From IMG/VR virus record IMGVR_UViG_3300010396_000015, positions 1 through 48,521 of that record: a stretch of 48,521 nucleotides of DNA; one strand, 5' to 3'. Below are positions 4,694-48,521 of the stretch, one piece after another; positions within the stretch are counted from its first letter, which is position 1, and each line of letters begins with the position of its first letter. Below the pieces are notes generated by a model that ran no database searches, was not told the DNA's origin, and saw only the letters and a list, made by a program, of their open reading frames with translations. The translations under genes and the position numbers were made by a program. Source of the stretch: a virus.

Positions 4694-4764
4694 GCCCGTG
4701 TGGAATCGGTGGAGCGCCACAATTGTCAATCAAGGCTCGCCACTTGGTAAAAAGGATAAGGCTA

Positions 4765-5328
4765 ATGAACGCAGTTGCAAATGACGTTACCCCTTCGTCA
4801 AATGACGAACTGGTAACGATGTCCGATGGAAGACAGGTGACATTCGTCGGGAAGCGCAAGCTTCTCAAAGAGTCCATCATCGAGAATGGTCAGGTAACGG
4901 TGCGTTTGGACTTCCGCAATGGGAAGACCATTTCGTACGAGATCCCCGATCAGTTCGTTCTCCGCTTTGCCGGGCACGGGGCGGAACAGAAACTCGGTGA
5001 TGCGACGGCTGGAGAGCAGAACGTCGATGACATGGTGGAAGCCGTGGAGTCGGTGGTTCTGCAGCTCAACAAAGGCGAGTGGAATGCCCGCCGGGAGGGT
5101 GGCGCTGGTGGATTCGCAGGCGCGAGCGTGTTGCTCAGGGCCCTGGTGGAAGTCTCCGGCAAGCCGATCGAGCGAGTGCGAGAGTATCTCTCTGGTCTCA
5201 ACCAGAAGGAAAAGCTCGCCCTGCGACAGTCGCCGAAGCTCAAGCCCACGATCGAGCGGATCGAGGCGGAGAATGCTTCGAAGACCTCAGCCTCGGTGGA
5301 TACCGACGCGTTGCTGAGCGCGCTCTAA
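4765..5328 (+). CDS. Early phage protein, paralogue of the 557-1060 product
   Basis: A 187-residue protein (MNAVANDVTPSSND...). The ATG at 4765 follows AAGGATAAGG; an earlier TTG at 4723 lacks a good site. The N-terminal half looks beta-rich (DGRQVTFVGKRKLL, GQVTVRLDFRNGKTISYEIP), the C-terminal half shares EWNxRREGG...LLRALVEV and the DTDALLSAL ending with the product at 557-1060. It sits alone between a promoter (4666) and a terminator (5411), so it is a monocistronic unit, which implies high or separately timed expression. The family appears in many podophages without known function. Confidence 0.8.
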   Translation: MNAVANDVTPSSNDELVTMSDGRQVTFVGKRKLLKESIIENGQVTVRLDFRNGKTISYEIPDQFVLRFAGHGAEQKLGDATAGEQNVDDMVEAVESVVLQLNKGEWNARREGGAGGFAGASVLLRALVEVSGKPIERVREYLSGLNQKEKLALRQSPKLKPTIERIEAENASKTSASVDTDALLSAL

Positions 5329-5474: not shown

Positions 5475-5503
5475 TTGACATGGGTGGGAGGTTGTGATAC
5501 TAT
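5475..5503 (+). promoter_or_regulatory. Sigma70-like promoter
   Basis: TTGACA (5475-5480), 17-bp spacer, TACTAT (5498-5503). The 13 bases CCCTTGGTTGACA (5468-5480) are identical to those at 1361-1373. It lies just after the terminator and opens the long replication operon starting at 5557. Confidence 0.78.
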
Positions 5504-5556
5504 ACGTGCGTTTCGTGAACCGAACCATACGTACACAACAAAGAGGGACCAAAACA

Positions 5557-6455: not shown

Positions 6456-6665
6456 ATGCCTCGCACCCCCAATATAACTCGGCCTTCGAAACTCACCCTC
6501 CACCTCCCGGAGGACATCCGAGCCAAGCTCGATCTATACCTATTCAGTGAGATCGAGGGCCGTATTCCTTACGCTGCGTATCAGAAGTTCTTGATCGAAA
6601 GGATTAATGAGTTCTTCACCGGCGGCGTACGCAATTGCCCCCAGTGCGGGCACCAGTTTAAATAG
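6456..6665 (+). CDS. Ribbon-helix-helix-like small protein with CPxCG tail
   Basis: A 69-residue protein. The frame is open from 6306, but that part overlaps the preceding gene; the ATG at 6456 (8 bp after its stop) gives MPRTPNITRPSKLTLHLPE. Residues about 11-50 look like a ribbon-helix-helix fold: beta strand KLTLHLP, helix DIRAKLDLYLFSEIEG, then a second helix. The tail NCPQCGHQF is half of a zinc ribbon. It may be a small DNA-binding regulator; the inference rests on pattern only. Confidence 0.6.
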   Translation: MPRTPNITRPSKLTLHLPEDIRAKLDLYLFSEIEGRIPYAAYQKFLIERINEFFTGGVRNCPQCGHQFK

Positions 6666-11199: not shown

Positions 11200-11550
11200 A
11201 TGCCGATAACTGTAAAGGCCCTAGCCGCCTCACGTCTCTACTCCGTCACTCGCATAGAGGACGTAGAGGCAGGGATATTGAACTGTTATTTTCCCATCAC
11301 TATGGAAGGCGATGATGATGAGTCCAGGGAGATGATCTTCATCGGGGAGACTAATATCCAGTTCCCTAACACCCCTCCCATCACCATTCGCTTCCCGATC
11401 AAGGCGAAGTCCATCGCCATCGCCCTTCAGCAATGGCATGAAACTTGCTCCAACGCCATCGCCCAGTGGGAATCCCAACAACGCCAGCATCTCATTGCCA
11501 GCGCAGCAGCCGCCGGGATGCCTAAGCCGAAGATCCAGCTACCATCATGA
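11200..11550 (+). CDS. Conserved phage protein, unknown
   Basis: A 116-residue protein from ATG 11200 (GGGAG six bases upstream); the open frame extends to a TTG at 11176 inside the terminator. It begins MPITVKALAASRLYSVT and has beta-rich acidic middle parts (REMIFIGETNIQF), then PPITIRFPIKAKSIAIALQQ and a helical WHETCSNAIAQWESQ. I recall similar small proteins beside phage replication genes, with no known function. ATGA overlap with the methyltransferase fusion gene. Confidence 0.7.
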   Translation: MPITVKALAASRLYSVTRIEDVEAGILNCYFPITMEGDDDESREMIFIGETNIQFPNTPPITIRFPIKAKSIAIALQQWHETCSNAIAQWESQQRQHLIASAAAAGMPKPKIQLPS

Positions 11551-12854
11551 AACTCCTGAGCATCAACGTCAATGAAATCCTCATCGACAAGCACCGCCAA
11601 CGCAAGACCATCTCCCAGGAAGATGTCCTGCGCCTGGCCAATTCAATTGCCGCTAACGGACTCATCCAACCAGTGGTTGTGCGAAAGGACCCAGAGGGAA
11701 ATTACCTCCTGGTTGCAGGCGAGCGGCGTCTTCGCGCGCTCACCCATCTTTGGTTCTTTGACAATCAAGTTCGGTGCGGGGAGTTTCAATTCGAAGTCGA
11801 ACACGTGCCTTGTATATATCAAGGCGACATGGACCCCGACGATGCCTTTGAAATGGAACTCGAAGAGAACATCCGCCGGGTTGACCTCTCCTGGCAAGAG
11901 CGAGCCCAAGCCACCGCTGAGCTTAACGAGCGCCGTAAGCGTCGTGCAGCAGCTGCTGGACTCGCAGCACCTACGATCGAGGAGCTCGCTGAAACCACTC
12001 ATGGTTCAAGTGGCGAAAGCCTCCAGCGGACCAGGGCAGAAATCCTGGTTGCACCCCATCTCTCCGACCCCGACGTTGCCGCCGCCTCCTCCCCCAAGGA
12101 AGCGCTCAAGCTCCTCCAGCGCAAGGAGCAAGCGTCCAAAAACGCCGCGCTCGCGCTCTCGATAGGCAAGTCCCTAATCGACGAGCACACCCTTCACCAA
12201 GGGGAATGTTTCCGAGTCCTCGAGGATATACCAGATGGAACCTTCGATGTCATCCTCACTGATCCCCCGTATGGAATTGATGCAGATCAATTCAGCGATA
12301 GTGGCGGTCGCGTTGCGGGAGCTCACTTCTATGACGACTCCTGGAAAACCTGGAATACCCTCGCCAAGCGACTGGCAGTGGAGAGCTACCGGGTTGCTAA
12401 GCCTCAGGCACATGCTTACATCTTTTGCGACATTGATAATTTCGTCTTACTCAAAGGATTTTTTCAAGAACAGGAATGGCGTGTATTCCGTACTCCTTTG
12501 GTCTGGGTTAATCCTACAGCAATGCGCGCGCCTTGGCCTGAACACGGCCCCCAGAGGAAATACCAGATCTGCCTGTTCGCGGTTAAAGGGAATCGGCCAG
12601 TTAATCGAATCTACCCTGATGTGGTGACATATGCATCAGATGATAATCTGGGCCATCACGCCCAGAAACCCGTGGCTTTATACCTTGACTTGCTTACTCG
12701 GAGTGTACGCCCTGGAGATACTGTTCTTGATCCTTTTGGTGGTACGGGACCTGTTATTCCCGCAGCGCACGAGTTGAAGTGTCGGGCGACTTACATCGAG
12801 CAAGACCCGGCGGCGTTCGGGATAGGGGTTAAACGGCTGGAGGGGTTGAAATGA
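11547..12854 (+). CDS. ParB-like nuclease/CTPase domain fused to DNA adenine methyltransferase
   Basis: A 435-residue fusion. Residues 1-115 are a ParB/Srx-type domain: LANSIAANGLIQPVVVR, VAGERRLRAL (57-65), and ENIRRVDLSW (108-116). A helical linker (120-210) follows. Residues about 215-435 are an amino-methyltransferase of the beta order: motif IV DPPYG (239-243), then HAQKP, then the SAM-binding loop DPFGGTG (395-401). DPPY fits N6-adenine methylation. Such fusions occur in phages and may mask phage DNA from host restriction. The ParB part would give DNA binding or specificity. Coupled by ATGA on both sides with the small gene before and the DUF3310 gene after. Confidence 0.92.
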   Translation: MKLLSINVNEILIDKHRQRKTISQEDVLRLANSIAANGLIQPVVVRKDPEGNYLLVAGERRLRALTHLWFFDNQVRCGEFQFEVEHVPCIYQGDMDPDDAFEMELEENIRRVDLSWQERAQATAELNERRKRRAAAAGLAAPTIEELAETTHGSSGESLQRTRAEILVAPHLSDPDVAAASSPKEALKLLQRKEQASKNAALALSIGKSLIDEHTLHQGECFRVLEDIPDGTFDVILTDPPYGIDADQFSDSGGRVAGAHFYDDSWKTWNTLAKRLAVESYRVAKPQAHAYIFCDIDNFVLLKGFFQEQEWRVFRTPLVWVNPTAMRAPWPEHGPQRKYQICLFAVKGNRPVNRIYPDVVTYASDDNLGHHAQKPVALYLDLLTRSVRPGDTVLDPFGGTGPVIPAAHELKCRATYIEQDPAAFGIGVKRLEGLK

Positions 12855-13168: not shown

Positions 13169-15657
13169 GCCCCGACGGCCCACCTAATGCTAAGATCATG
13201 CTCGTCGGCGAAGCCCCTGGTGCTGAGGAGGAACGCTCTGGCAAGCCATTCCAAGGCGCCTCCGGCATGGAGCTCAATCGTATGCTCCAAGAGGCCGGCA
13301 TCACTCGCAGCGAATGCTTCGTAACCAACTGTGTCCGTGTCCGCCCTCCCGCCAACGACATCACCCAGTTCTTCGCCCAGTCTAAGAAGGAAATCACTAA
13401 TGCTCATATTAAACATCTGGGTCGCCATTGCCTTCCTGTCATTATGGACGGCTTGCATACTCTGGCTCGGGAGATTGATCTGGTCAGGCCGAGTATTATC
13501 GTGGCCTTGGGAGGAACCCCACTTTGGGCCCTCACCGGTAAAGAAGGAATCACCAAGTGGCGAGGGTCGATGCTCCGTACGTTGGTGTCCAGTTACAAGG
13601 TCATACCTACGTACCACCCCGCAGCAGTCCTCCGCCAATGGGAGTGGCGGTCAACCCTCGTCCACGACTTGCGCCGAGCAGCCCGATTCCGGGACGGTAC
13701 TGATTTTCCCGTTCCCAAGTGGAACTTCCAAATAAGGCCATCCTTCAATGACGCAACTATCATTCTCACTAATCTACGACATCGACTTGACTGTGGAGAA
13801 CGACTGCAACTCAGCTTTGACATCGAAACTCGAAGAGGACATATCGCATGTGCTGGTGTCTCATGGACAAGATTTGATGCGATCTGTATTCCGTTTATGT
13901 GTGTCGAAAGGAGTAGCGGTTTCTGGGGGGAAGCTGAGGAAGCGACTCTCGTCGATCTACTGTACCGATGCCTCACCCACCGAAACGCGTCAGTAATCGG
14001 CCAGAACATCCTCTACGACTCCCAGTACACCTGGCGGCATTGGCACTTCGTCCCCCGAGTAACCCAGGACACGATGATCTCTCAGCACGCTGTGTTCAGC
14101 GATCAGCCCAAGTCCCTTGCCCATCTCGCATCATTATACTGTGACTATTACGTCTACTGGAAAGACGAAGGAAAGAACTGGGATGCTAACCTCGGTGAAG
14201 ACCAGCTCTGGAATTACAACTGCCAGGATTGTGTTTATACCTATGAAGTCGCTGATACTTTACGCAGCATTGTGGAGAAGATGGAACTGGGGCCTGTTCA
14301 CACTGCGCAGCAACAAATGTTCTGGCCGGTTCTTAAGGCTATGCAACTTGGAATTCGGGTGGATACGGCTAAAAGATCCGAGCTAACCGCTGAAGTCCAA
14401 GAGGAAATCGCCAAGCGAGAGCAGTTCATCTACGACACTCTGGGGCATGACTTCAACGTCAACTCCCACGTCCAGATGAAGAAGCTCTTCTATGATGATC
14501 TCAAGCTCCCAGTCCAAATGACCCGAGCAAAGAAAGGAGTCGCCGGCCATGCTACACTTAACGATGAAGCGATGCAACGACTGGCAGACCGAGAACCCCT
14601 TATCCGCCCACTCGTTAGTGCAATTGCTGATATCAGAACCCTTGGGATATTTCTGGGTAACTTTCTATCCGCCCCGCTGGATACCGACGGTCGCATGCGG
14701 TGTGCCTATAACATCGGAGGATCTGCCTCAGGAGCAAGTGCTCCGAAAACCTATCGCTTGTCTAGTTCAGAATACGCCTTCGGATCAGGGACCAATCTTC
14801 AGAATATTCCCTCTGAGAAATCCAAGTCCGTGGCCAAGGCGGCAGCGCGAACTGGACTTAGTTTTCTCGGAGATCCCTATGGATTCCCGAACATTCGTAG
14901 TATGTTTATCCCAGATCCTGGATATATCTGGTTCGACGGAGATCTCGATCGCGCCGACCTTCAAGTGGTCGCCTGGGAGGCCGACGATGAGATGCTCAAG
15001 TCCGCCCTACGAATGGGCGCCGATATCCACCTAATGAACGCATTTGTCCTCCAAGGCAAAGACCCTCCCCCACTCGAGGAGCTAGTAGAAAACCATGACC
15101 GATACAGAGACCATCGCGGCCCTCGCAAAGCTCTTCGAGAGTTTTCCAAAACCTTCTGCCACGGAACCAATTACGGCGGAAGCGCAAGGACTATGGCAGC
15201 AAATACTGGTCGGACTGTCCACGAAGTTGACCGAGCCCAGCACATCTGGTTTGGTGCGCATCCTGGTATTAAGCAATGGCACGATCGAATTAAGCAGCAG
15301 GTCACTAAATATCACTTTGTCCAAAACACCTTCGGATACCAGTGGAGGATCTTTGGTCGTGTCGATTCAATTATCCCTGAAGCCATCGCTTGGATTCCCC
15401 AGTCTACTGTTTCCATCGTAATCAACAAGATCTGGCTAGCGATCTACAACCAAGTCCCCGAGGTTCAAGTCCTTGCCCAGGTCCATGATTCCCTTAATGG
15501 ACAATTTCCCAAGTCCATGATACAATCCACCCCGCACAAAATCATGGAGGCCTCCCGAGTGGTAGTCCCATATCCAGACCCACTGGTTATACCCTTCAAC
15601 CTTAAGTTCTCCACTACATCATGGGGGCAGTGTGAGGAACTTTCCAAACTGGCTTAA
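13153..15657 (+). CDS. Uracil-DNA glycosylase (family 4/5)-family A DNA polymerase fusion
   Basis: An 834-residue replicative polymerase with an extra repair domain. Residues 1-180: UDG with VGEAPG (18-23), SGKPFQGASG and TYHPAAVLR (153-161). Residues about 215-370: 3'-5' exonuclease with Exo I FDIET (D223, E225), Exo II NILYDS (D289) and Exo III YNCQD (D359). Residues about 380-834: PolA domain with motif A DLDRADLQVVA (597-607), motif B R662-K666-Y674-G675 and motif C VHDS (777-780). Three hallmark positions differ from E. coli Pol I: Glu710 is Asp602, Phe762 is His670, and Glu883 is Ser780. Metal ligands D597 and D779 are kept. The UDG part could remove uracil during copying. It overlaps the next gene by 26 bp. 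Confidence 0.95.
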   Translation: MPIEVGPDGPPNAKIMLVGEAPGAEEERSGKPFQGASGMELNRMLQEAGITRSECFVTNCVRVRPPANDITQFFAQSKKEITNAHIKHLGRHCLPVIMDGLHTLAREIDLVRPSIIVALGGTPLWALTGKEGITKWRGSMLRTLVSSYKVIPTYHPAAVLRQWEWRSTLVHDLRRAARFRDGTDFPVPKWNFQIRPSFNDATIILTNLRHRLDCGERLQLSFDIETRRGHIACAGVSWTRFDAICIPFMCVERSSGFWGEAEEATLVDLLYRCLTHRNASVIGQNILYDSQYTWRHWHFVPRVTQDTMISQHAVFSDQPKSLAHLASLYCDYYVYWKDEGKNWDANLGEDQLWNYNCQDCVYTYEVADTLRSIVEKMELGPVHTAQQQMFWPVLKAMQLGIRVDTAKRSELTAEVQEEIAKREQFIYDTLGHDFNVNSHVQMKKLFYDDLKLPVQMTRAKKGVAGHATLNDEAMQRLADREPLIRPLVSAIADIRTLGIFLGNFLSAPLDTDGRMRCAYNIGGSASGASAPKTYRLSSSEYAFGSGTNLQNIPSEKSKSVAKAAARTGLSFLGDPYGFPNIRSMFIPDPGYIWFDGDLDRADLQVVAWEADDEMLKSALRMGADIHLMNAFVLQGKDPPPLEELVENHDRYRDHRGPRKALREFSKTFCHGTNYGGSARTMAANTGRTVHEVDRAQHIWFGAHPGIKQWHDRIKQQVTKYHFVQNTFGYQWRIFGRVDSIIPEAIAWIPQSTVSIVINKIWLAIYNQVPEVQVLAQVHDSLNGQFPKSMIQSTPHKIMEASRVVVPYPDPLVIPFNLKFSTTSWGQCEELSKLA

Positions 15658-16861
15658 TGCCTATATAGAATATGCAAAGTTTTCAGAAGCTCCAAGGCGA
15701 ATGCACTTCTGGTCTGGCGTGTCCGCTATTGCCGGAGCGCTGCGCCGTCGAGTATGGATCGACATGGGATACTTCAAGTGGCACGCGAACCATTATATTG
15801 TCTTCGTCGCTCCTCCTGGAATTGTCTCCAAGTCGACTACAGTTTCTATCGCGATGTCGCTCCTGCGAAAGGTGCCTGGTGTTAAATTTGGCCCCGACGT
15901 GGTTACGTGGCCGGCTCTGGTTACAGGCTTTGCTGAGGCTTCTGAGTTATTTGAATTCAACTCAGAATGGTATACTCAATGCGCGCTTACGTTGGAAAGC
16001 TCAGAGTTTGGTAATCTGGTTAATCCGCAAGATCGTGAGATGATTGACTTGCTCGTCAACCTTTGGGACGCAAAGCAAGGCGAGTTCAAAAAGATCACCA
16101 AAGGCTCTGGCACAGATACCGTCGAGAATCCCTGGATCAACCTCATCGCCTGCACCACTCCCGCGTGGATCGCAGGGAATTTCCCCGAGTACGTGATCGG
16201 CGGCGGGTTTACTTCCCGTTGCTTGTTCGTCTACGCCGAGGAAAAGGAGCGTTTCGTTGCGTACCCATCCCAGCACATCCCAGCGGGCCAGAGAGCCCAG
16301 GCTGACCTCCTCGTCCAGGACCTCGAGCACATTGCCACCAACCTCATGGGGCCGTATACCATTTCAGACGAGGGAATGGAATGGGGAGAGGTCTGGTATA
16401 AACACCACTATGATCACCCGCCCGAGCTTTTACAAGATGAAAGGTTTGGCGGATATCTGGCTCGAAAGCAGACCCACCTCCACAAGTTGGCGATGGTGAT
16501 CGCTGCGGCCCAGCGAGACCTAATGGAGATAACCGTCGAGGATCTCTCTACCGCCGGCACCATGATCGACGACCTGGAAAAAGACATGCCCAAGGTCTTT
16601 TCCAAGATCGGGCGGACAACCCAATCCATCCAAGCCGAGCGCTTGATTAAGTTCGTTCGTAAGAATAAACTTGTATCTTACGACCATGCTTACCAGCATG
16701 TCTACGAGCATTTCCCCTTGCTCCGGGATTACTCCAGCGTCTTCGACGGAGCCGTTCGGGCGGGATATATCCAGATAATCAACACTGACCGAGGGCTGAT
16801 GGTGGCACCGAAGGATATAGATGATTCTCTACGTGGTATTCCATCGGCGAATCCCACGTAG
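15632..16861 (+). CDS. DUF3987-type P-loop protein (putative replicative helicase)
   Basis: A 409-residue protein from GTG 15632. N-terminus NWLNAYIEYAKFSEAPRRMH and FWSGVSAIAGALRRRVWID match the DUF3987 primase-helicase-like family of phages and plasmids. The P-loop is atypical: APPGIVSKSTT (60-70), with Ser in place of the Gly before Lys. A LESSEFGNL strand and the GFTSRCLFVYAE segment also fit the family. It likely moves on DNA beside the polymerase, with which it is translationally coupled. The last gene of the plus-strand operon, its 3' end encodes the 12-bp hairpin at 16825-16865. Confidence 0.8.
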   Translation: MRNFPNWLNAYIEYAKFSEAPRRMHFWSGVSAIAGALRRRVWIDMGYFKWHANHYIVFVAPPGIVSKSTTVSIAMSLLRKVPGVKFGPDVVTWPALVTGFAEASELFEFNSEWYTQCALTLESSEFGNLVNPQDREMIDLLVNLWDAKQGEFKKITKGSGTDTVENPWINLIACTTPAWIAGNFPEYVIGGGFTSRCLFVYAEEKERFVAYPSQHIPAGQRAQADLLVQDLEHIATNLMGPYTISDEGMEWGEVWYKHHYDHPPELLQDERFGGYLARKQTHLHKLAMVIAAAQRDLMEITVEDLSTAGTMIDDLEKDMPKVFSKIGRTTQSIQAERLIKFVRKNKLVSYDHAYQHVYEHFPLLRDYSSVFDGAVRAGYIQIINTDRGLMVAPKDIDDSLRGIPSANPT

Positions 16862-16865
16862 AGAA
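16825..16865. repeat. Hairpin element A at the convergent junction (possible bidirectional terminator)
   Basis: TTCTCTACGTGG (16825-16836) and CCACGTAGAGAA (16854-16865) are perfect inverted arms with a 17-nt loop holding ATCGGCGAAT. It spans the stop codon of the last plus-strand gene and lies 5 bp before the end of the last minus-strand gene. The central 31 bp match the hairpin at 32079-32113 (read on the minus strand) at 27 of 31 positions, loop included. The right part recurs at 48346-48392. No T-run follows on either strand. Confidence 0.8.
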
Positions 16866-16870
16866 CCCCC

Positions 16871-17335
16871 TCAGTTTACCCTATTATAACTCCACCCGTC
16901 GGCGGACAAGATCACTGCCAACATCACCGGAGTGATCTTGTTCAATGGCTGCCAGAGCTCATTAATAACCCCACCTACTTCCAGGCAGGCGGCAACCAAC
17001 TCCGAGCAGAACCAGCAATCATCCTCTCGCCAGTCCCGATTGGTAACAAAGGCGAGAATTGCTAGGTGATCGTATTTCTTATTGATTTGCTTGTAAGCAT
17101 AGCGATAAACCTCGAACGCTTGTTCCCCGCTGACCTCCTTGCTAAACACCCAGCGGGTAGTAGTGCCCAGGTAATTTCCTGGCCTCGCTTGTACTCCGCC
17201 GTCGGTCCGAGCCCCGAGCAGCGTATGGTTCGGCATAACCAGGTCCGCATGACTCAAACGCCCAGCGGAGAACCAGCTGATCCCTTTCGAGATCAGCCCG
17301 GTTCCTTGCGCTAGGCTAACCTCTAGCCGCGTCAT
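16871..17335 (-). CDS. Permuted NlpC/P60-like (YiiX/YebB) cysteine hydrolase
   Basis: A 154-residue protein. The circularly permuted papain fold shows LSHADLVMP with His29, LLGARTDGGVQARP, and DDCWFCSELVAACLE with nucleophile Cys110. Members of this group cleave amide bonds in peptidoglycan, lipids or proteins. At the end of the lysis cassette it may be a second cell-wall enzyme or a virion-associated hydrolase. No signal peptide is seen, although LISKGISWFSAG is mildly hydrophobic. The ATGA overlap with the upstream gene fixes the start. Last gene of the late operon. Confidence 0.75.
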   Translation of the reverse strand: MTRLEVSLAQGTGLISKGISWFSAGRLSHADLVMPNHTLLGARTDGGVQARPGNYLGTTTRWVFSKEVSGEQAFEVYRYAYKQINKKYDHLAILAFVTNRDWREDDCWFCSELVAACLEVGGVINELWQPLNKITPVMLAVILSADGWSYNRVN

Positions 17336-28637: not shown

Positions 28638-30097
28638 GATGTCCCTATATCGTACTCAAGGTCCACCGCCCTGATCCGCAGGGAAGTTTTGGCCAGGTGT
28701 CGAAAGTGATACGCTCGTTTGTAGAACGAACCTTCGTCTTTCAGAACAGGCCTTGATACGGATAGATCAACTTGCCTGAAATTGGACCAGGTTTTGTAAT
28801 CGTTATCTGAGTACCGAACGTACAGGACTGACCCGGCGGTCTGGTCTGCCTGGAACCACATACGGTTGAGAACTTTAACTCGGTTGATATTCGCGGAGTA
28901 ATTCGGCGTGTAGATATCCACCTGAGGTGTGGAGGTTATTCCAGCATAATTCGTATCAAAGGGATACACGTAAGCTGCATCGATGAAGTTTATCGAGCCG
29001 TCGGCATCCCCCTGGACCAGGATCTTCCCGTTAACGTCAAAGGTGCTCTCCATCCACGGCCAGTAGTTCCCCGCGCCATCTGTCCACTGGGACCAGAGTT
29101 GTTGCCCGCTATCATAGACCAGAGTAAGGTTCGCGCCTGTTACTGTAAGGATATAGAATTTATGTCCAGCGACCTTCAACGCGGACGAATGGATACTTCC
29201 ATAACTCCCCGTTAGCGCCGCCTGGAGTAATCTCTCCACTGGCGGGGTAGAGATTATCTGCGTCTTCAGGTTTTGCATCATCGCGATCTGTGGGGATCGA
29301 GACTGGTTGTAGGTTAGCCAGTATAAAATATCATCCAGGGATTGGATACTCCCAGCATCGGCACAGCCGTAGGGAGTTATTGCCTCGGGTACAGGGGCTA
29401 GCGGGGAACCTGTTGGATTGCCATTATCCAGGAATACCTGAGTGATATTCCTCTTAAAAGCGATAACGTAGGAAAGCTGTCGGTCCAATGCAATCCCTGG
29501 ACTGCCGTCGGCATTGGCTAGGATGACGTTTAAAGAATCCGCCCAAGTGGGCGTGTTAAGGGGACTTCCCCAAATAGCTCCTGTGATGTCCATTATATAC
29601 GAAGTCCCGTCGAGGGTCGCCACTCCAGGAACCAGAGTGTTAGAAAACGCTGGTGTCACCGAGGTTAGGGTTACGCCGTCGGCGGAGACTGTGTAAACAT
29701 CATTACCTCCATTGCAAAGGATAACAATTGGAGAGGTTATCGGAATTACACTGAACCTAAACCGATTCGTAGTACTTGTCCCAGTGGCTACACTCCCCAC
29801 CAAGCTTCCATTACAGTAAAGACTCTGCCCAGCAACACCGAATACAGAGACTGCTGAGTTCCAATAAGCGTAGCTATACAATCCTTGGCCCAGGTGCGTT
29901 CCAAGACTACCCAGGTTGTAGGTGTATTTTACCCCGAGGCGCTTGTAAATTTGGTACTGGCCAGTAACTCCATCCTGTTCCCCGTAGCCATTAATCAACC
30001 TCGCATCGAAGTTAGTCGTTCCGTCACGGTTGTCGGTTTGATTAATAAGCGGCAGCTGTTGAGGCTGCTGCATTGTTGGGGCTTGTTGAGCGGGCAT
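28634..30097 (-). CDS. P22 gp10-like tail / packaged-DNA stabilisation protein
   Basis: A 487-residue beta-rich protein. N-terminal LPLINQTDNRDGTTNFDARLING, then YKRLGVKYTY, repeated aromatic strands (LGQGLYSYAYWNSAVSVFG) and blocks with LDRQLSYVIAFKRNITQVF and LNRMWFQADQ resemble the gp10 hub of P22, which closes the portal channel after packaging. C-terminal RHLAKTSLRIRAVDLEYDIG matches the family end. TAATG overlap with the gp4-like gene upstream gives the P22-like order. Confidence 0.8.
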   Translation of the reverse strand: MPAQQAPTMQQPQQLPLINQTDNRDGTTNFDARLINGYGEQDGVTGQYQIYKRLGVKYTYNLGSLGTHLGQGLYSYAYWNSAVSVFGVAGQSLYCNGSLVGSVATGTSTTNRFRFSVIPITSPIVILCNGGNDVYTVSADGVTLTSVTPAFSNTLVPGVATLDGTSYIMDITGAIWGSPLNTPTWADSLNVILANADGSPGIALDRQLSYVIAFKRNITQVFLDNGNPTGSPLAPVPEAITPYGCADAGSIQSLDDILYWLTYNQSRSPQIAMMQNLKTQIISTPPVERLLQAALTGSYGSIHSSALKVAGHKFYILTVTGANLTLVYDSGQQLWSQWTDGAGNYWPWMESTFDVNGKILVQGDADGSINFIDAAYVYPFDTNYAGITSTPQVDIYTPNYSANINRVKVLNRMWFQADQTAGSVLYVRYSDNDYKTWSNFRQVDLSVSRPVLKDEGSFYKRAYHFRHLAKTSLRIRAVDLEYDIGTS

Positions 30098-32051: not shown

Positions 32052-32078
32052 TTGGTTTCTCCTTTAGCTTGGGAATAA

Positions 32079-32113
32079 TGTACGTGGGAATCGCCGATCG
32101 AAACCCACGTACA
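32079..32113 (-). repeat. Hairpin element B downstream of the capsid gene (putative attenuator)
   Basis: TGTACGTGGG (32079-32088) and CCCACGTACA (32104-32113) are perfect 10-bp arms with a 15-nt loop. On the transcribed (minus) strand, the central 31 bp match hairpin A (16828-16858 region) at 27 of 31 positions, including the loop core ATCGGCGA. Both hairpins are in sense orientation at the 3' end of a gene. TTATT follows on the minus strand, a weak terminator tail. Confidence 0.8.
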
Positions 32114-32125
32114 CTATCCTATCCC

Positions 32126-33049
32126 TTACGGACCATTCGATCCCAGGATGCTACGCGGATCGGTATTACCTACCGAGAACCGCATGTACGTACCCGCCTT
32201 CGCATTCTTCGTGTCGAAGTCGTTATCCTGGTCGAACTCAGGCCGATCGCGCCAGAACATCTGCATCCCATTAGGGCAGTTCGTTCGGACGAAAAAGGCA
32301 TGAGGGTTGGTGAAGTAATGGTTCATCTTGATACCACCCGGGAAGGCATTGGTCGCCTTCAGCACGTTGATATCATTGTTCGCCGTTCCGGGCTGAAGCA
32401 CTGACTTCATAATCCGGTTAGCGTTGAACCACTCCTGGCGTGCAATGTGCAAGCTCTGCGGAAGGATCGAGATGAAGAGTCCTCGATCCGTCTGCAAGCC
32501 CATTGCCTGGATGCTGATGTCCTCGAGCGAGGCTTCCATCAGATCTGCCGCCGGGGTCAATACGTTGCTGAACGTACCTCCAGTCGCATTGGGATTTGAC
32601 GAGGAGCAGAGGGTCTGACCGTTACCATTCAGATACACCGCACCGGTGAAGGCATCGTTGTACACACCTGCAGCAATGTTCTCGACCGTCTGAGTGATCG
32701 AGAATGCATTTGCCCAGGCGCGGTTCATGGAGACCTTCTCGTAAAGGTTGTCCTGGAGCTCTTCGTAGGTGACGATATATCCCAGCGCATACGCGATGTG
32801 CGTGTACGTTGAGATGACACCCTGAGTTTCGTAATCATAGGTCATTGGCGCGCCTTCAGCTTTCGCCGGGGCAAGGCCGAAACCAGTGATTGCACCGTCC
32901 TGCTCGTACGCCATACTGGAGTCGAGCTGGTCGTAGAGGTCCAGATACTCCTTTGCGTGTTCGTCGTACTTCTGTCCCCAGAAGGCATGCACCCCAGGCC
33001 AGAGGGCTTTGGGATGACTGCCAGTGGAGATGATACCACCAATAGCCAT
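32126..33049 (-). CDS. Major capsid protein
   Basis: A 307-residue protein. Start-up segment STGSHPKALWPGVHAFWGQK, a YLDLYDQLDSSMAYEQ stretch, TYTHIAYALGYIVTYEELQD, a SLEDISIQAMGLQTDRGLF helix, and LPQSLHIARQEWFNANRIM fit the HK97-type coat family of podophages with about 300-residue coats. Position after scaffold-like and decoration-like genes, and a hairpin right after it, support high expression. It would form the T=7 head lattice. Confidence 0.82.
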   Translation of the reverse strand: MAIGGIISTGSHPKALWPGVHAFWGQKYDEHAKEYLDLYDQLDSSMAYEQDGAITGFGLAPAKAEGAPMTYDYETQGVISTYTHIAYALGYIVTYEELQDNLYEKVSMNRAWANAFSITQTVENIAAGVYNDAFTGAVYLNGNGQTLCSSSNPNATGGTFSNVLTPAADLMEASLEDISIQAMGLQTDRGLFISILPQSLHIARQEWFNANRIMKSVLQPGTANNDINVLKATNAFPGGIKMNHYFTNPHAFFVRTNCPNGMQMFWRDRPEFDQDNDFDTKNAKAGTYMRFSVGNTDPRSILGSNGP

Positions 33050-47444: not shown

Positions 47445-47621
47445 TTAACAAACCCCTGGGAGTTTACCAGGCATCAGGGTGCCGCCGAACCGATGCTTTT
47501 GTCTGATCGGCACCGACGGCGAGGGAGGGGACTGGTCCGGTGCCTTGACCTGCGGGCAGGTCTTCCCACCAGGACTCATACCACTATGGCTGGGCAGGCG
47601 AGGCGTCATCTTGCTGGTCAT
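47445..47621 (-). CDS. Small Pro/Lys-rich phage protein
   Basis: A 58-residue protein from ATG 47621, which has CGGAGGTCTTCC upstream, one of the best ribosome-binding sites in the window. MTSKMTPRLPSHSGMSPGGK is followed by a Pro/Ser linker and RQKHRFGGTLMPGKLPGVC. It overlaps the 3' end of the putative small terminase by 38 bp and abuts the next gene. Function unknown; perhaps a small virion or packaging factor. Confidence 0.55.
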   Translation of the reverse strand: MTSKMTPRLPSHSGMSPGGKTCPQVKAPDQSPPSPSVPIRQKHRFGGTLMPGKLPGVC

Positions 47622-48234
47622 GGAAGACCTCCGAGTCAATGATCTCACTACGCTTCCGGCGCAGCAAGCCGACGAGATTCTCGCCGAGGGATTCAAGGTG
47701 GACATGCATCGAAACAGGGGGAGCAGCCGGTGGCTGGATAACCCTGGCGCCATAGCCGGCGGCTTGGGAGGCGATCTTCAGGGCTTGCAGGACGAGCTGA
47801 TCCGGGACCGTGGCGGCAGGCTTGGATAGCTTCTCCCGCAGGATCTCCATCGAGCGGCTCACCAGGCCCTTGAACTGGGTGTCGATGGTCTGCGCCAGCA
47901 CTGGGTCCACGAGCTCATTCCGTCGCTGAGCGAGCTTTGCTTGAAAAGCATCGCTGCAGATAACCTGGGAAATCCAACTCGCCGAATACCCGAAGCGAAC
48001 CGCCAGCTGATCCTGGGAGATACTCGGCTCACTCAGAATCATATCAATCATCGCGTCGTGCGTGTAGTGGATCTTTTTAAGCGCACCGGTATAGACAACG
48101 TGTGGCTTGGTATCAACGCTAACGTCAACGTCAACGCAGGTGGCCGAGACCTCGCGAGAAGTCTCTGAGGGACCCGCATCGCTGAGAAAATTCTCCAACG
48201 AGGCCTCGGCCAGATCTGAACCAATGGATGACAT
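47584..48234 (-). CDS. HTH protein, putative terminase small subunit
   Basis: A 216-residue protein. Residues about 60-100 hold a helix-turn-helix (MIDMILSEPSISQDQLAVRF, GYSASWISQVICSD), then a helical middle (AKLAQRRNELVDPVLAQTID) that in small terminases forms the ring, and a C-terminal region with Pro-rich linker and charged tail. The HTH-then-helix order, the position as first late gene and a large terminase later in the same operon favour a DNA-recognising small terminase. A late-gene regulator is the alternative. No good ribosome-binding site precedes the ATG at 48234. Confidence 0.65.
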   Translation of the reverse strand: MSSIGSDLAEASLENFLSDAGPSETSREVSATCVDVDVSVDTKPHVVYTGALKKIHYTHDAMIDMILSEPSISQDQLAVRFGYSASWISQVICSDAFQAKLAQRRNELVDPVLAQTIDTQFKGLVSRSMEILREKLSKPAATVPDQLVLQALKIASQAAGYGARVIQPPAAPPVSMHVHLESLGENLVGLLRRKRSEIIDSEVFHDQQDDASPAQP

Positions 48235-48277: not shown

Positions 48278-48306
48278 ATCATACACATCGCTTTGCAATA
48301 GGTCAA
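48278..48306 (-). promoter_or_regulatory. Strong late promoter on the minus strand
   Basis: On the minus strand: TTGACC (48306-48301), 17-bp spacer, TATGAT (48283-48278). Both boxes match the sigma70 consensus at five of six positions. Transcription would begin near 48271, giving a 37-nt leader before the first late gene at 48234. It is the only clear minus-strand promoter and may serve the whole 31-kb late operon. Confidence 0.82.
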
Positions 48307-48345: not shown

Positions 48346-48392
48346 TCGGGGAAGCCCACGTAGAGAACGGGATGCGAAACGCACGTAGAGAA
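48346..48392 (+). repeat. Two half-sites of the hairpin element, direct repeats
   Basis: CCCACGTAGAGAAC (48355-48368) is identical to 16853-16866, and the bases from 48346 continue the match (21 of 23). The second copy GCGAAACGCACGTAGAGAA (48374-48392) matches 16847-16865 at 17 of 19. CACGTAGAGAA thus occurs twice here, 25 bp apart, in the same direction. There is no pairing left arm, so these do not form the hairpin seen at 16825. They lie between the divergent operons, upstream of the early leader. Confidence 0.8.
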
Positions 48393-48398
48393 TGTCGA

Positions 48399-48521
48399 AA
48401 GGAAAAAACCTGACAAAATGGGTTAAGGTGGCGCGCCCCTCCGCGCGATTTGCCCCTCCCACGGTCCCGAAATGATTATCGTTACCATCCAGGTCCGCAA
48501 CGTGGTGCGCTGCGATGGGCT
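48399..48521. repeat. Direct terminal repeat, right copy
   Basis: Identical over 123 bases to positions 1-123. See the left copy; together they show that the contig closes on itself. Confidence 0.95.

Follow-up and report, generated by a model that had tools for sequence, protein, structure and literature searches.

Paired boxes at promoters and transcript ends of a phage genome as probable DNA operators of its own RHH-like protein

Two hairpins of nearly the same sequence, one (A, at a junction of convergent operons) ending the early genes and the other (B, 32079-32113) standing behind the capsid gene, raise the question of whether such elements act as RNA at the ends of transcripts or are read as DNA. 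The DNA analysed here, called the window, is the whole stretch of 48,521 nt at positions 1-48,521 of the virus record IMGVR_UViG_3300010396_000015. Its first and last 123 nt (1-123 and 48399-48521) form an exact terminal direct repeat, and the record looks complete. Since terminal repeats, of 80-127 nt, are also present in several relatives, the window and the relatives' records with such repeats are probably complete.

The likeness of A and B, reported in the initial annotation as 27 of 31 central bases when both are read in the sense strand, including ATCGGCGA, was reproduced, as were the lengths of the arms. The arms of A (TTCTCTACGTGG/CCACGTAGAGAA) form a stem of 12 bp with a loop of 17, and those of B (TGTACGTGGG/CCCACGTACA) a stem of 10 bp with a loop of 15. 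With three or fewer mismatches allowed, the A/B consensus is matched in the window at A and B only, and none of 100 dinucleotide shuffles contains it. A near-identity DNA search of phage records gave no match, and an exact 16-mer scan of IMG/VR (loop plus right arm) returned 31 scattered matches, which is about the chance level. Both elements occupy gene ends: the final 12 codons of primase/helicase fall within A, which stops 6 bp short of the end of the convergent gene, and B is flanked by the major capsid gene and the late gene that follows it (Table 1). A perfect 11-bp inverted repeat with a loop of 14 (16906-16941) is found within the convergent ORF, 40 bp past A.

Common to A and B is a 6-bp box of the TACGTG type, present as a pair. 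Repeat and matrix scans of the window revealed two further copies of this box pair, sites C and D, which had been overlooked in the initial annotation, and at all four sites (4/4) the boxes stand exactly 25 bp apart, start to start. Site C begins on the last base of the -10 element of the early promoter. Site D has no hairpin (RNA folding z 0.1). The TTCTCT that extends the arms of A is also found directly before both boxes of D, and it is therefore part of the box and not of the stem.

Table 1. Box pairs, promoters and genes of the window considered in the text
Feature	Coordinates	Strand	Description
Early promoter	5475-5503	+	TTGACA-N17-TACTAT, consensus match; ahead of the operon with the proposed regulator gene
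Site C	5503-5533	+	boxes 5503-5508 and 5528-5533, 25 bp apart; imperfect inverted repeat
Proposed regulator, RHH-like	6456-6665	+	69 aa, unannotated; putative strand KLTLHLP, proposed DNA-facing residues K12, T14 and H16
Primase/helicase gene	15632-16861	+	last early gene; phrog_14296, 6e-82
Site A	16825-16865	+	inverted TACGTG boxes 16830-16835 and 16855-16860, 25 bp apart; convergent junction, end of primase/helicase gene
Last gene of the opposing (late) strand	16871-17335	-	PHROG 1128-like
Site B	32075-32117	-	inverted boxes 32081-32086 and 32106-32111, 25 bp apart; after the capsid gene
Major capsid protein gene	32126-33049	-	57% to an annotated major capsid protein
Candidate late promoter	48278-48306	-	TTGACC-N17-TATGAT, consensus match; downstream of D
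Site D	48346-48393	-	boxes 48357-48362 and 48382-48387, 25 bp apart; direct repeat

The same positions could be followed in related phages, for which about 150 loci were gathered with the exonuclease, capsid and DNA polymerase genes; the nearest cultured relative found by its capsid protein was Alcaligenes phage QDWS535 (48% identity). The relatives carry box pairs with a spacing of 24-25 bp behind the capsid gene, behind primase/helicase, at an early promoter and ahead of the late operon, and the word of these pairs is phage-specific: G022 carries five pairs of GTGAACAC, all exactly 24 bp apart, the word of G007 is AGGCGCCT, and in G018 the word CGGGGACAAT forms direct pairs, 24 bp apart, at all three of the mapped places. 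The box pair at the junction in G053 is a direct repeat as well. In early promoters of G012, G002, G022, L158 and G065 a box lies between the -35 and -10 elements, where it is not transcribed from that promoter. A box that works in direct pairs and also within a promoter spacer points to a DNA site. Many loci, including L153, L181, L182 and the QNA group, have no recognised word, and several triads of strand residues are without an assigned one. After the capsid gene of L047 and L052 the operator pair is replaced by a classical intrinsic terminator followed by a promoter-like sequence (TTGCAC/TTGCAT-N17-TACAAT).

The initial annotation had taken the well-kept loop as a sign of recognition by a protein or of a processed RNA. 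Elements of this kind, looked for at 3' gene ends of related phages as a possible refutation, do occur there. The spot after the capsid gene carries a strong dyad in most relatives, different in sequence in each, and several have an ordinary intrinsic terminator instead. Because stems and loops at this place differ wholly among relatives, they do not constitute an RNA family with a fixed loop, and an Rfam search found no match. Recognition by a protein is the part that is supported, in the form of a putative DNA site, whereas an RNA loop as its target disagrees with the direct-repeat copies and with those in promoter spacers; the RNA reading of A and B was thus mostly wrong. Post-capsid sites were also considered as promoters, and this was rejected for want of a consistent -35/-10 there.

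Folding of the transcripts nevertheless deserves attention. The predicted hairpins are very stable (z -5.0 on the plus and -5.7 on the minus strand of A, -7.1 for B), and the 70 nt after the capsid stop have z<-2 in 23 of 33 loci, compared with 11 and 7 for control stretches within the gene and farther downstream, respectively (mean z -3.5 versus -1.8 and -1.0). An additional RNA-level role at B and after the capsid gene is therefore plausible, with moderate support. If A and B were RNA elements only, that is, terminators, processing sites or protein-bound loops, this stability, the post-capsid excess over the control stretches and the classical intrinsic terminators at the same place in some relatives would be accounted for. 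This explanation is improbable, however, as pairs are direct repeats at D, at the three G018 sites and at the G053 junction, boxes also lie inside promoter spacers, and the word varies among phages and tracks a protein of the DNA-binding type, as described below. In addition, a U-tract is missing after A on both strands, only AUUAUU follows B, and both sites were absent from a terminator scan, which was the search made for intrinsic terminators.

Another explanation extends the one based on operators: at gene ends the inverted repeat could be kept because its RNA stem is selected besides regulator binding. Such dual use is quite possible, at something short of even odds. In a manual classification with small numbers, 9 of 10 phages have an inverted pair after the capsid gene and about 3 of 9 have one ahead of the late operon. 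The post-capsid pair of G018 is direct but is followed at once by a separate GC hairpin of 10 bp, and the post-capsid z-scores agree with a selected stem. On the other hand, inverted pairs are found at promoters too.

The reader of the paired boxes is likely, judging from sequence, to be the small protein encoded at 6456-6665. It is common to the word-bearing phages and has a strand-helix-helix sequence pattern, and a promoter carrying an operator stands upstream of its gene in the window and in G002, G005, G007, G012, G022, G028 and L158. We infer the label "RHH-like" from this pattern and from the covariation described in the next paragraph. The family was not recognised in Pfam or PHROGs, with weak matches only to Pfam RHH_5 (E 0.06-0.09, in 2 of 55 members); PDB sequence searches with the protein returned nothing informative, and Foldseek gave no usable match for two predicted models. 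The AlphaFold2 monomer of the 52-residue core (pLDDT 92) consists of helices 13-23 and 35-49 and contains no strand. In a lone RHH chain no sheet is expected.

Strand residues and operator words were compared in 65 non-redundant loci. When the best repeated pair of 9-mers ahead of the gene was picked automatically, the outcome was too noisy at most loci, and fixed-word tests with control spacings were used instead. Paired TACGTR is present in 8 of 10 loci with KT proteins and in 1 of 55 others (Fisher 8e-8), and paired TGTTCA/TGAACA in 4 of 5 loci with HHT proteins and in 3 of 60 others (2.5e-4); these Fisher values are optimistic, since the word classes had been recognised by eye before testing. 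For the T class, 15 pairs were observed and 0.4 expected from control spacings. Of 46 columns, those of residues 12 and 14 were, in this order, the two most strongly associated with operator class in a test that covered, among the shared proteins, the family of the 6456-6665 protein alone. A scan of 44 whole records, which partly overlap the 65-locus set and serve as a check rather than as a fully independent sample, found inverted TACGTR pairs in 6, all six with KT proteins. In the three mapped records of these six, the pairs are found at a promoter or behind either the primase/helicase gene or the capsid region.

The match between residues and words does not follow overall relatedness. HHT-positive proteins are just 30-48% identical to one another, and the HHT protein of G022 is 58-61% identical to KTH proteins of TACGT-word phages. 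In the tree of the neighbouring exonuclease each word is scattered, with at least three changes forced per word, and L087 (KTH, TACGT) adjoins G022 (HHT), L152 (KNC) and L083 (SHT). Linkage or shared descent alone is insufficient to explain the match. Statistically, the alternating strand residues of the RHH-like protein appear to set its DNA specificity.

Other proteins of the phage could act as the reader, namely the ParB-methyltransferase (11547-12854) and the HTH proteins (1684-2253 and 47584-48234), all of which have domains of the DNA-binding type. There is little likelihood of this, as the strongest association with operator class was that of two strand residues in the 6456-6665 protein (the only one tested by columns), and no homologue of 1684-2253 was detected in several word-bearing phages. 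The latter had been considered as the regulator and was rejected, its Trp-repressor-like match being weak and the protein absent from many word-bearing relatives.

The explanation preferred here, to which a probability of about 0.78 is assigned as a whole, is that A and B are paired DNA operators of the phage's own RHH-like protein. Each box would bind one dimer of this protein, and the two-stranded sheet of the dimer would read the box in the major groove. Made early from the 5475 promoter, the protein could then shut this promoter off via site C, a putative autorepression, and could act on the late promoter from site D with a sign that we infer. At A and B the bound protein would, solely by analogy, most likely be a roadblock where the early and capsid transcripts end, and would limit readthrough between the convergent operons and past the capsid gene. 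Inverted pairs at transcript ends would also give a stable RNA stem, which may help to stop transcription or to protect the mRNA 3' end.

Scattered as they are across the genome, the sites could instead be centromere-like or architectural, the protein bridging distant pairs and organising or partitioning the genome rather than regulating transcription; RHH proteins, for example plasmid partition factors, bind repeated boxes. It is very improbable that this is their role. The sites are tied to promoters and transcript ends and are not clustered, early promoters carry a box in the spacer, and no ParM/ParA partner was recognised.

If the paired boxes are operators of the RHH-like protein, a probable function is provided for an unannotated small protein of the 60-odd distinct phages sampled, together with a proposal for the timing of gene expression in these phages. 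The scaffold stays while the word changes from one close relative to another, which makes the group a natural experiment on DNA reading by RHH proteins; a swap of strand residues is predicted to swap the preferred box. A more tentative and rather doubtful reading is that of a fast-switching regulon, in which two or three strand-residue changes go with a change of all operators together, and in which operators at transcript ends double as RNA stems, so that initiation would be controlled as DNA and 3'-end formation as RNA. The same tentative reading would include a readable RHH recognition code (KT: TACGT; HHT: GTGAACAC; KN: GGCGCC; SHT: TGTGGACA).

Several neighbouring features of the window were noted. 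At 1175-1275, inverted repeats (AAGGTTCC...GGAACCTT) enclose a long tract of T/A, a possible origin or packaging element, and similar A-tract dyads are found in the relatives G003 (10-57) and G007 (28949-28995). An imperfect dyad with a 20-arm (490-533) opens with an early promoter-like TTGACA. Two paralogous proteins (509-1060 and 4723-5328, about 26% identical) are present in nearly all relatives and have no Pfam or PHROG function. The protein at 11547-12854, a ParB-like domain fused to a DNA methyltransferase, is conserved among relatives. Integrase families were sought in the window and none was found.

A literature search with little coverage of subscription journals found no paper describing this phage system. 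The closest known proteins are RHH regulators (MetJ, Arc/Mnt, CopG, NikR, AmrZ), which share with the proposed regulator the small size, a strand-helix-helix-type sequence and strand residues as base readers (here proposed), as well as self-regulation and two boxes per operator (here proposed also). MetJ has a K-x-T strand and a GACGTC-type box, and these resemble the K-x-T strand and the TACGTA box of the present system. Unlike the known RHH regulators, the family described here is unknown to Pfam and PHROGs, its boxes stand 24-25 bp apart in direct or inverted orientation, its sites are found at transcript ends too, and its words switch between close relatives. In AmrZ, strand residues K18, V20 and R22 read GGC half-sites (PMC3325190).

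Among viral regulators, the RHH proteins SvtR and AvtR of archaeal viruses could be compared: SvtR represses its own gene and binds a few other sites, one of them some 80 nt ahead of the promoter of a structural gene (PMC5569661). They differ from the phage system in host domain, sequence and box layout, and the passages on them describe no sites at transcript ends (PMC5569661). In the p4 early/late switch of phi29, early phage proteins act on early as well as late promoters (PMC3100819). Proteins and sites are different here, and the proposed effect on the late promoter need not be activation.

A functional parallel for the gene-end sites is offered by the stoperators of cluster A mycobacteriophages, repressor sites at promoters and in intergenic gaps that are proposed to stop elongation and whose specificities diverge between phages, as they do here (PMC9283540). 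If the proposal is true, operators at transcript ends would extend elongation-acting regulators of this kind to an unrelated protein family. A genome has more than 20 stoperators, each a single asymmetric 13-bp site that is oriented with transcription and to which an HTH protein binds as a monomer (PMC9283540). The phages considered here, in contrast, have 4-5 paired boxes in free orientation, and the four pairs of the window, direct as well as inverted, differ in this from sites of the L5 type.
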